From positions 91,637 to 125,237 of the forward strand of contig JACRDK010000025.1 in NCBI GenBank assembly GCA_016218585.1: DNA of 33,601 bases, read 5' to 3'. The notes below the pieces were generated by a model that was not told the DNA's origin, ran no database searches, and saw nothing but the letters and a program-made list of their open reading frames with translations. Origin of the DNA: Candidatus Doudnabacteria bacterium. GTDB taxonomy: Bacteria > Patescibacteriota > Doudnabacteria > UBA920. Below, piece after piece: positions 20,517 to 23,693 of the stretch; position 1 is the stretch's first letter; every line of letters begins with the position of its first letter. A program made the position numbers and the translations under genes.

Positions 20517-20530
20517 TGGAGCTGTTTTTT
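20499..20530. terminator. Bidirectional terminator between the TrmB gene and uvrB
   Basis: CAGCTCC (20505-20511) and GGAGCTG (20518-20524) with A6 and T6 flanks; the TrmB stop codon is in the loop. Confidence 0.9.
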
Positions 20531-22590
20531 TATTTTTTATTTTGAAGTTTTTTTACTTTTTTTATTTCTTCGATTTTATCCCGCAAGCGGGCGGCAAGTT
20601 CAAATTCCAAATTTTGTGCGGCTAAATCCATTTGCTCATTTAGCTCGTCCAAATAAAATTTAATTTCTTCCCCGGTCATTTTAGTCGGGTCAACTTTGCG
20701 CATCTCTTCATCTTCCTCTGCCACTTTTTGTCCGGCCAGGCGGGAGTCGCGAATAGCCTTAATAATTGTTTTTGGAGTAATGCCGTGCTCTTTGTTGTAA
20801 TCTTCCTGAACTTTGCGGCGGCGGGTGGTTTCGTCTATAGCTGCTTTCATTGAGCCGGTGATGCGATCGGCGTACATAACCACATGGCCTTCCACGTGGC
20901 GGGCAGCGCGTCCCATCATTTGCATAAAAAATGTTTCCGAACGCAAAAAGCCTTCTTTGTCCGCGTCGAGTATGGCAACTAAAGAAACCTCCGGCAAGTC
21001 CAAGCCTTCGCGCAGCAAGTTTATGCCAACTAACACATCAAAAACCCCAAGCCTGAGGTCACGCAAAATTTCCAAGCGGTCAAAAGTGTCCACGTCGGAA
21101 TGTAAATACTGCACTTTTATGCCGTCTTCCTTTAAGTATTCGGTAAGCTCTTCAGACATGCGCTTGGTAAGAGTGGCTACCAGCACGCGCTGGCCTTTTT
21201 TGGTAGTGGCTTTAATGCGTTCCATTAAATCGTCCACTTGGTTTTTAATGGGCTTTATTTCAATGGTCGGATCCAGCAGTCCGGTAGGCCTTATTAACTG
21301 TTCAACAATAGAAGGGTAGTTTGCCGATTTATCGGCCTTTCCCGATTGCCCATAAATGGGCTTACTACTTTTATCTTGCTCCAAACATTGCTGGATTTCC
21401 CATTTGCCAGGGGTGGCAGAGACAAATACTGTTTGATCAATTTTTTCCAAAAATTCGGGGAACTTAAGTGGGCGGTTATCTAATGCCGAAGGGAGGCGAA
21501 AACCGTAGTCAATCAACGTGGTTTTGCGCGACCGGTCGCCTTCATACATAGCTCCGATTTGCGGGATTGTTTGGTGAGATTCGTCTATAAATAGCAAAAA
21601 GTCGTCCGGGAAGTAATCTATTAATGTGGAGGGCGGACTGCCGGCCGGCCGGCCTTCAATAACCCGGGAATAGTTTTCAATGCCCGAAACAAAGCCGGTG
21701 TTGCTTAACATTTCCAAATCAAAATTGGTTCTTTGCTCAATCCTGGCCGCTTCCAAAATTTTCCCGGCGCCTTTTAGTTCTTTAGTCCGCTCGGCTAGTT
21801 CTGTTCTAATATCGTCGACTGCTAATTTTAGCCGGTCTTCCGGAGTTACAAAATGTTTAGCCGGAAAAATTGTAAATTCGGTTAAGTCTTCAATCTTATG
21901 GCCGGAAACCGCTTCCAGCCTTTCAATTTTTTCCAAAGTGTCGCCAAAAAAATCCATTCTAATAATGGTGTCTTCGGAAGAAAGGATTATTTCCACCACA
22001 TCGCCGTGGCTGCGAAAAGTTCCTCGCACCAGTTCGGTGTCGTTGCGGTGATATTGCAAATCCGTTAGCCTTCTAAGCAATTTGTCGCGTTTAATTTTTT
22101 CTCCCTGTTTAACGTCTAAGGCTAAATCTAAATAGTTGGCCGGATCGCCTAAGCCGTAAATGCAGGAGACGGAAGCGACAATAAGCACGTCTTTGCGCGA
22201 GAGCAGGCTTTGGGTGGCGGCATTGCGCAGACGGTCAATTTCTTCATTAATTTGAGTTTCTTTTTCTATGTAAGTATCGCTTCTTGGAATATAGGCTTCG
22301 GGCTGGTAGTAGTCATAGTAGGAAACAAAATAATGCACCGCGTTGTCCGGGAAAAATTCCTGAAATTCCGCGGCCAGTTGCGCGGCCAAAGTTTTATTAT
22401 GGGAAATAATCAGCGTGGGCTTATTTATTTTCTCTATAATATTGGCCATAGTAAAAGTTTTGCCGCTGCCGGTAACCCCAAGCAGGGTTTGGAAGCGGTT
22501 TTTGGCTTTTAAGCTTTTAAGCAAGCCGTCAATGGCCTTGGGTTGGTCGCCAGCCGGAGCAAATTTTGAAGTAAGACGAAATTTATTCAT
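20530..22590 (-). CDS. uvrB: UvrABC excision nuclease subunit B
   Basis: I place the start at the ATG at 22590 (MNKFRLTSKFAPAGDQ), giving 686 residues; an upstream ATG 27 nt earlier adds residues with no counterpart in UvrB. UvrB is the damage-verifying helicase-like subunit of nucleotide excision repair. Visible landmarks are Walker A GVTGSGKTFT (about 38-47), the beta-hairpin YYDYYQPEAYIPRSDTYIEKE region (about 90-110), DESHQTIPQIG, the helicase motif GINLLREGLDLPEVSL, and a C-terminal UVR domain (LNEQMDLAAQNLEFELAARLRD). Length and motifs are normal. A TATACT box ends 5 nt before the ATG, so the mRNA may be leaderless. Confidence 0.97.
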   Translation of the reverse strand: MNKFRLTSKFAPAGDQPKAIDGLLKSLKAKNRFQTLLGVTGSGKTFTMANIIEKINKPTLIISHNKTLAAQLAAEFQEFFPDNAVHYFVSYYDYYQPEAYIPRSDTYIEKETQINEEIDRLRNAATQSLLSRKDVLIVASVSCIYGLGDPANYLDLALDVKQGEKIKRDKLLRRLTDLQYHRNDTELVRGTFRSHGDVVEIILSSEDTIIRMDFFGDTLEKIERLEAVSGHKIEDLTEFTIFPAKHFVTPEDRLKLAVDDIRTELAERTKELKGAGKILEAARIEQRTNFDLEMLSNTGFVSGIENYSRVIEGRPAGSPPSTLIDYFPDDFLLFIDESHQTIPQIGAMYEGDRSRKTTLIDYGFRLPSALDNRPLKFPEFLEKIDQTVFVSATPGKWEIQQCLEQDKSSKPIYGQSGKADKSANYPSIVEQLIRPTGLLDPTIEIKPIKNQVDDLMERIKATTKKGQRVLVATLTKRMSEELTEYLKEDGIKVQYLHSDVDTFDRLEILRDLRLGVFDVLVGINLLREGLDLPEVSLVAILDADKEGFLRSETFFMQMMGRAARHVEGHVVMYADRITGSMKAAIDETTRRRKVQEDYNKEHGITPKTIIKAIRDSRLAGQKVAEEDEEMRKVDPTKMTGEEIKFYLDELNEQMDLAAQNLEFELAARLRDKIEEIKKVKKLQNKK

Positions 22591-22624: not shown

Positions 22625-22663
22625 CAAAAAAAAGAGGGCCGCCCGGAGGAGGTGGGTCGGCCC
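22625..22663 (-). terminator. Terminator of the candidate ncRNA
   Basis: On the minus strand GGGCCG pairs with CGGCCC, with an inner CCC/GGG, followed by a T-rich tract of about nine residues (plus-strand A run at 22626-22633). It is GC-rich and strong. Confidence 0.85.
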
Positions 22664-23063
22664 GTGGGAGAAGACCAGGCTTTATTGGTCTAGTCCTTGC
22701 AGGTGGTGAAATCCTGCAAGAGGGTAACGGGTGGCGGTGCGCAAATGCGCTTAGGCTTGCCAAAAGAGAGGAGAATGGCACAGCTTCCACACCACCCGCT
22801 GACGGAAGGACGAATCAATGGCCGAACGCGGCAAGGCCAATTGTTTTTGGCTAGCCCTGGCAGGCTTTGCCAAAATCGTCTCCCATCAAAGTTTAGAGAT
22901 TCCTCTTTATTATATTGCAAACTATGATTGCTTGGACGAAAAGGCTCTTAAACGTCCATTGGGCTTTGGGCATCTTTCGATGCCGTGTTGTTAGGGTCTT
23001 TGCGCCCAGAATATTTTACCCGCTGACGGGCAATGGAGCCTTTTAAACTCTTTATAATAGAGT
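22634..23063 (-). ncRNA. Candidate structured non-coding RNA of about 430 nt, family not recognised
   Basis: This gap holds no credible protein gene but has a consensus minus-strand promoter and a strong terminator. Two helical domains are visible. Domain I is closed by AAAAGGCTC with GAGCCTTTT (23036-23044 and 22939-22947, 9 bp) and contains CCATT/AATGG, CCCG-TCAG-CGGG, and GGCATC-GAAA-GATGCC with a GNRA tetraloop (22969-22984). Domain II is closed by TGGGAGA with TCTCCCA (22879-22885 and 22665-22671). It contains two hairpins with 7-8-bp stems (TTTTGGC/GCCAAAA; CAAT-GGCC/GGCC-ATTG), a CTTCC/GGAAG hairpin whose loop CGGGTGG pairs with a downstream CCACCCG (a pseudoknot), and CTTGCAGG/CCTGCAAG and AGACC/GGTCT hairpins. 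The core motifs of RNase P RNA, tmRNA and SRP RNA are not seen. Confidence 0.72.
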
Positions 23064-23069
23064 AAACAA

Positions 23070-23098
23070 ATAATACTTACAACAGGTCTTTTTGTCAA
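23070..23098 (-). promoter_or_regulatory. Promoter of the candidate ncRNA
   Basis: Minus-strand TTGACA (23093-23098), exactly 17 nt, TATTAT (23070-23075). Start point predicted near 23063, where a small ACTCT/AGAGT hairpin begins. Confidence 0.82.
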
Positions 23099-23120
23099 AC
23101 ACCCGGGGAATTGGTAGAAT
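23092..23120 (+). promoter_or_regulatory. ruvA promoter, back to back with the ncRNA promoter
   Basis: Plus-strand TTGTCA (23092-23097), 17 nt, TAGAAT (23115-23120). Its -35 hexamer shares five base pairs with the -35 of the divergent ncRNA promoter, so the two may exclude each other. Confidence 0.72.
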
Positions 23121-23141: not shown

Positions 23142-23693
23142 ATGATTGCTTACTTAAAAGGAAAGGTTTTGGAAAAAAGTACAAGCTTTTTAATTTTAGA
23201 AAATAATGGTATTGGTTATAAAGTTTTTGTAACTCCTGAGACTTTGGAAGCAAAAACGGGTTCCGAGGTTGCGGTATATATCTACCACAAAGTTTCGGAA
23301 GACGGGCAGTCGCTTTATGGCTTGCCTGATTTTTCAACCTTACAATTTTTTGAAATGTTAATAACGGTTTCCGGAGTGGGTCCAAAAGTTGCTTTAGCAA
23401 TTTTGTCCGCCGCCAGAGTAGATGCGGTTCGCCAGGCAATTGCCAACCAGGACGCGGGAATGTTTAAGCGCATTTCCGGCATTGGCACCAAAACCGCAGA
23501 GAAAATAATTGTGGAATTGAAAGATAAGGTCTTAGGAGGCGGCGAGGGGGCTGCGGGCAGCAGCGAGGTTTTTGATGCTCTGCTGGCCTTAGGTTATAAC
23601 AATCGAGAAGTGCGCGAGGTGATAAATAAAATTGATGCTTCCGCCAGCCAAGGGGAGCAAATAAAACAAGCTTTGAAATTACTTGGAAAGTAA
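23142..23693 (+). CDS. ruvA: Holliday junction branch migration protein RuvA
   Basis: This 183-residue protein begins MIAYLKGKVLEKS, the conserved start of the RuvA OB-fold domain (1-62). Two helix-hairpin-helix motifs follow (VSGVGPKVALAIL near 76 and ISGIGTKTAEKII near 111), then a short flexible acidic-glycine linker and the C-terminal UBA-like domain that contacts RuvB (DALLALGYNNREVREVI). RuvA tetramers hold Holliday junctions for the RuvB motor. Slightly short for the family but complete. ruvB and ruvC are not adjacent. No Shine-Dalgarno sequence is visible. Confidence 0.96.
   Translation: MIAYLKGKVLEKSTSFLILENNGIGYKVFVTPETLEAKTGSEVAVYIYHKVSEDGQSLYGLPDFSTLQFFEMLITVSGVGPKVALAILSAARVDAVRQAIANQDAGMFKRISGIGTKTAEKIIVELKDKVLGGGEGAAGSSEVFDALLALGYNNREVREVINKIDASASQGEQIKQALKLLGK

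Follow-up and report, generated by a model that had tools for sequence, protein, structure and literature searches.

The gap between uvrB and ruvA in this Candidatus Doudnabacteria genome raises the question of whether a structured RNA gene lies there and, if so, what it might do. The locus was analysed within a window of 33,601 nucleotides (the whole stretch of DNA studied, to which positions refer unless a contig is given), in which a sequence-only reading had described an unassigned RNA lying between a promoter and a terminator and crossed by long-range helices. Every element that it had named was present, and all of them lie on the minus strand, where promoter, structured RNA (~430 nt) and terminator form one unit. 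The promoter, at 23098-23070 and thus just beyond the end then quoted for the RNA (23063), agrees with the consensus at 11/12 positions, and the predicted transcript starts ~7 nt past the -10 box and ends within the T tract. Gene layout, structure, synteny, motif enrichment and the shared promoter are all read here from the sequence, and the features are the following.

20530..22587, minus strand: uvrB, directly downstream of the RNA and on the same strand
22626..23063, minus strand: predicted non-coding transcript, with a fold z of -5.78, ORFs no longer than chance and no Pfam match
22626..22663, minus strand: intrinsic terminator GGGCCGACCCACCTCCTCCGGGCGGCCC-TC-T8, a GC-rich hairpin, then TC and a run of eight T
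22645-22654, minus strand: anti-SD loop CACCUCCUCC, part of the terminator
22665..22671, minus strand: UCUCCCA, 3' strand of a 7-bp long-range helix possibly closing the 3' domain
22722..22798, minus strand: three-way junction closed by CGGGUGGUG/CGCCACCCG and followed by UUACCC, with counterparts in L004 and L132
22759..22781, minus strand: hairpin A of the junction, with the loop AUUCUCCUCUCUUU (anti-SD-like CUCCUC)
22879..22885, minus strand: UGGGAGA, 5' strand of the helix possibly closing the 3' domain
22899..22912, minus strand: SD-like box UAAUAAAGAGGAAU, with no start codon at SD spacing
22934..22957, minus strand: hairpin GGACG-UUUAAGAGCCUUUU-CGUCC, with GAGCCUUUU in its loop; in L132 GGGCG-UUUUGGGCCUUU-CGCCC, with compensatory changes
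22939-22947, minus strand: GAGCCTTTT, second strand of the 9-bp long-range pseudoknot helix
22969..22984, minus strand: GNRA-tetraloop hairpin GGCATC-GAAA-GATGCC
23036..23044, minus strand: AAAAGGCTC (as RNA AAAAGGCUC), 5' strand of the pseudoknot helix; L132 counterpart AAAGGCCC
23070..23075, minus strand: RNA promoter -10 box TATTAT, after a 17-nt spacer
23093..23098, minus strand: RNA promoter -35 box TTGACA, in a palindrome whose plus strand supplies the ruvA -35 (TTGTCA)
23092..23120, plus strand: divergent ruvA promoter TTGTCA-17-TAGAAT, its -35 common with the RNA promoter
23142..23693, plus strand: ruvA, divergent from the RNA

The predicted minus-strand fold reached -161.1 kcal/mol, a stability equalled in 0/100 shuffles, and the plus strand gave a z of -2.43. 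The 9-bp helix makes a pseudoknot, because GAGCCUUUU sits in the loop of the hairpin at 22934-22957; taken alone, this helix is only mildly unlikely (p 0.04). The terminator was absent from the list of the automatic terminator scan, probably because TC precedes the T tract and the loop is long.

Known families did not account for the locus. Rfam, searched with both strands of the RNA, returned no family at threshold (lowest E 0.3, at 20 bits where the cut-off is 58.8), and the sub-threshold matches (ar14, suhB/mmgR and Xoo2) fell on the terminator. The earlier failure to recognise RNase P, tmRNA or SRP RNA was borne out by covariance models, none of which matched at the locus: class A RNase P RNA (RF00010) has its copy at G000:C27:58586-58930 (90 bits), tmRNA (RF00023), for which ARAGORN was negative here as well, at G000:C5:40405-40794 (131 bits), both on other contigs than the window RNA, and cmscan gave no match to 6S or SRP RNA at the locus up to E 10. 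A small protein-coding mRNA was also rejected, given a window ORF at p 0.17 and none of length at SD spacing past the SD-like box; two 76-aa frames of the RNA matched no Pfam family, and L004 and L132 differ by frame-breaking indels. A CsrB-like reading was dropped for having one GGA-type box only, and a T-box reading since no terminator/antiterminator pair was seen. Phage and plasmid collections yielded no meaningful match.

BLASTN across 98 relatives found no RNA homologue, and the comparison was therefore made at the uvrB-ruvA gap instead. There, a same-strand unit, in which a promoter is followed by 280-650 nt of structured sequence and then a terminator-like end, was found in 12/22 genomes of the family, the window's included (loci L003-L007, L009, L010, L012-L014, L022 and L132), making 13 RNAs since L012 holds two units; it was absent from L008, L011 and L142-L145. 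Outside the family no comparable RNA was seen where uvrB and ruvA adjoin, the gap being mostly 65-340 nt, and the gap of ~540 nt in L023 contains an ORF. The suggestion of a new or divergent RNA is upheld by these counterparts, and its possible extension to CPR at large gives way to one Doudnabacteria family. Primary sequence is almost unalignable among the family RNAs, and 12/13 of them fold with a z of -5 to -11, L132 standing outside that run. We consider this very probably a real, lineage-specific structured RNA gene.

Some loci showed further peculiarities. The two RNA units of L012 (G007) stand in tandem, and both possess a promoter, an SD-like box and a terminator of their own; in L022 (G004) and L013 (G016) tRNA-like genes fill the 5' part of the unit, and one tRNA-like sequence of L022 seems, by eye, to have a long hairpin inserted close to the D-arm. 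At L146/L147 (G017:C4) uvrB lies within a 1254-codon open frame interrupted by an insertion, possibly an intein.

The closest view of the structure came from L004 and L132, which belong to two genomes of one sister genus and clearly carry the same RNA (~60% identity including gaps), its structure kept through compensatory changes at the uvrB-ruvA gap, in keeping with the structured RNA first proposed. With structures selected by RNAalifold under a covariation bonus, a first alignment gave 136 pairs, of which 96 are unchanged, 24 differ on both sides, 12 have a one-sided change and 4 are broken, and a second gave 105, with two-sided changes in 17. The structure predicted from L132 alone showed 14 two-sided changes against 6.4 expected, a value reached in 2/2000 permutations, and that from L004 alone a weak excess (10 against 7.1). 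The antisense strand passes the covariation test too, as expected of Watson-Crick stems, so that the strand is decided by the promoter, the terminator and, in the window, the z-score. A covariance model (R1) built on this pair and run on 96 genomes recovered just those two RNAs, so no wider model was built; at the window locus it gave a weak match (E 0.19) on the opposite strand and did not recover the RNA's own strand, and homology of the window RNA to L004 and L132 therefore rests on position, promoter and shared elements. Homology based on sequence is firm for the L004/L132 pair only. Among the shared elements, the three-way junction (CGGGUGGYG/CGCCACCCG) is common to all three RNAs, with CUCC or UCCUCC in the loop of hairpin A in L004 and L132, and the pseudoknot is common to the window and L132, with AAAAGGCUC/GAGCCUUUU in the former against AAAGGCCC/GGGCCUUU in the latter and hairpin stems GGACG/CGUCC against GGGCG/CGCCC. 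Each pseudoknot helix alone has a p of 0.04-0.07 in the two RNAs, and the same arrangement in both is better evidence than either helix by itself.

The RNA promoter and that of ruvA go together. In 12/12 loci with the RNA, the palindromic TTGWCAA that holds the RNA -35 box also serves the divergent ruvA promoter, whose -10-like hexamer stands at the right distance in every case with a match of 4/6 to 5/6 (chance 0.02 for 5/6). On the RNA side the -10 is weak in L010, L013 and L022 (4/6, script-found). The ruvA -10 sits only 6 nt before the start codon in five loci, a spacing which suggests that the ruvA message may be leaderless there. The sole BLASTN match among the relatives, elsewhere in another genome, was itself promoter-like: L002 (G009:C2:15342-15397) has 78% identity to the RNA promoter, including TTTGTTTACT after the -10, and precedes genes that by eye resemble rpmF-nusB.

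Two short motifs, absent from the sequence-only description, recur in these otherwise divergent RNAs, the window's included. The most enriched k-mers were CTCCTC/TCCTCCG/CTCCTCC and GAGGAT/TAAAGAG/AAGGAGG. The latter correspond to a purine-rich SD-like box (UAAAGAGGAU/UUAAGGAGGAU), present once per family RNA and usually past an AU-rich stretch; L013 alone has a start codon at the usual distance from it (33-codon ORF). The CUCCUCC anti-SD motifs sit in loops predicted to be unpaired, often that of the terminator: unpaired UCCUC occurred 12 times in the predicted folds vs. ~1 in shuffles, and CUCC was in the terminator loop of 6/13 family RNAs vs. 3/315 genome terminators, in a scan whose tail rule skipped the window RNA's own terminator. 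Terminator-loop CUCC is missing in 7/13 RNAs, and the predicted folds of L006, L010, L012a and L013 have no unpaired CUCC.

These motifs are set in a genome (G000) with a canonical anti-SD at the 16S 3' end and few SDs, a 5-nt SD being found near the start of 44/791 long genes (~5%) vs. 16 in the control (loci L148-L224); at that frequency the transcripts within reach of anti-SD loops would be few. Many of the long genes (216 vs. 87 in the control) have a -10-like hexamer immediately before the start codon, and this, with the scarcity of SDs, suggests that leaderless transcripts are widespread in G000. Promoter-like sequence precedes at least 27 SD-led ORFs, most of them short, and compact units made of a TTGACA promoter, sometimes a leader hairpin, a strong SD, a short and mostly unnamed ORF and a terminator were seen at G000:C18:3110-4264, C18:5341-6316, C29:124546-125031, C30:42425-42945 and other places. 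A genome-wide scan for more units devoid of ORFs returned a mixed list and missed the window's own unit, and consequently says nothing on copy number.

Tentatively, and at rather less than an even chance, we read the RNA as a long trans-acting anti-SD regulator, inferring transcription, pairing in trans with SDs and repression from the features above. A non-coding RNA gene of one Doudnabacteria family would be transcribed divergently from ruvA through a bidirectional promoter with a common -35, giving an RNA made of a 5' domain (with the pseudoknot, in the window), the SD-like box, a 3' domain with the three-way junction and the terminator. The exposed CUCCUCC loops of hairpin A and the terminator would most likely pair in trans with SD sequences and block translation, the targets being the small minority of SD-bearing genes and notably short SD-led transcripts; the stems may be fast-evolving scaffolding that displays the anti-SD loops, and the SD-like box would probably tune activity through self-pairing or ribosome contact. 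Counting against this reading are the length of 280-650 nt, long for an anti-SD sRNA, the RNAs that lack CUCC in the terminator loop or in any unpaired position of the predicted fold, and the restriction of firm sequence homology to L004/L132. That the family RNAs form a new, hypervariable class of long regulatory RNAs, which display several anti-SD loops, are made from a bidirectional promoter tied to ruvA, and control a few SD-led transcripts in an SD-poor genome, is a more doubtful proposition, although one with an appreciable chance of being right.

The SD-like box could instead be the active part, binding the 16S anti-SD so that the RNA, a start-codon-less mimic of mRNA, holds the 30S subunit and its CUCC loops cover the box when idle. 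The canonical 16S anti-SD and the single box per RNA, past an AU-rich linker and without an ORF, would suit this role; several RNAs, however, match by the 4-nt GAGG only, the box is mostly paired in the predicted folds, and the several CUCC loops of each RNA are left unexplained, which makes it unlikely in our view. The complementarity of the two enriched motifs, together with the many helices and the pseudoknot, could also speak for a scaffold or oligomer, in which GAGGA-UCCUC pairing within or between copies builds pseudoknots or kissing loops and a large RNA particle. Yet, by our reading, TCCTCC is present in 0/4 RNAs with an AAGGAGG box vs. 7/9 with other boxes, the opposite of pairing covariation in what is a small sample, and we regard such a particle as quite improbable.

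The position of the RNA in the family loci, directly upstream of uvrB and on its strand, would fit a cis-acting leader or attenuator, a conditional terminator whose read-through controls uvrB; nearly every RNA, however, is followed by a hairpin and T tract resembling a terminator, promoter-like sequences were seen by eye between terminator and uvrB, and uvrB is kept without such an RNA in L008, L011 and L142-L145, so that we give this little credence. Equally little is given to a functionless remnant of an SD-led small-protein mRNA that lost its ORF, since, for all the promoter-SD-short ORF-terminator units of the genome and the ORFs that L008, L144 and L145 have at this place, ahead of ruvA or uvrB, the ORF-less versions in 12 genomes keep promoter and motifs and fold strongly, and L004 and L132 covary.

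The locus offers an RNA gene conserved in place and fast-changing in sequence, with a testable link to translation; were the anti-SD reading true, it would provide simple silencing of a small, defined set of transcripts where most genes are without an SD. As this case shows, RNA genes that escape sequence search can come to light through synteny, the symmetry of a promoter and short motifs. To our knowledge, few structured RNAs of CPR bacteria have been described beyond the universal ones, and our literature search found none of that kind for Doudnabacteria.

Among known systems, RNase P RNA and tmRNA resemble the window RNA in size and in multi-helix, pseudoknotted folding, with no match at its locus. 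The suhB/mmgR (RF00519) and Xoo2 (RF02241) models have a GC-rich terminator hairpin that aligned weakly with the window terminator; they measure 77-78 nt, and the matches (E 2-5) stay well under the cut-offs. Bacterial bidirectional promoters, as described in PMC12825309, are pseudo-symmetrical and can bind RNA polymerase in two competing orientations; the Doudnabacteria locus is alike in its symmetry and two orientations, and differs in that its palindromic -35, shared by an RNA and the divergent ruvA, is kept in 12 genomes of the family. The nearest parallel is offered by the alpha-r14 or cuckoo RNAs (RF02344, ar14), whose three hairpins have divergent stems and carry CCUCCUCCC in unpaired regions (PMC10746234), just as the anti-SD CCUCC motifs of the window RNA lie in loops predicted to be unpaired, those of the terminator and hairpin A. 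They gave its best sub-threshold Rfam match (E 0.3), but membership was rejected on score (20.0 bits vs. the gathering threshold of 58.8), size and extra domains: alpha-r14 RNAs are ~120 nt long, have three hairpins and belong to Alphaproteobacteria, whereas those of Doudnabacteria span 280-650 nt in two domains and have many hairpins, an SD-like box and a promoter shared with ruvA. Our best guess, by analogy, is that the window RNA may work like the alpha-r14/cuckoo RNAs without belonging to them.
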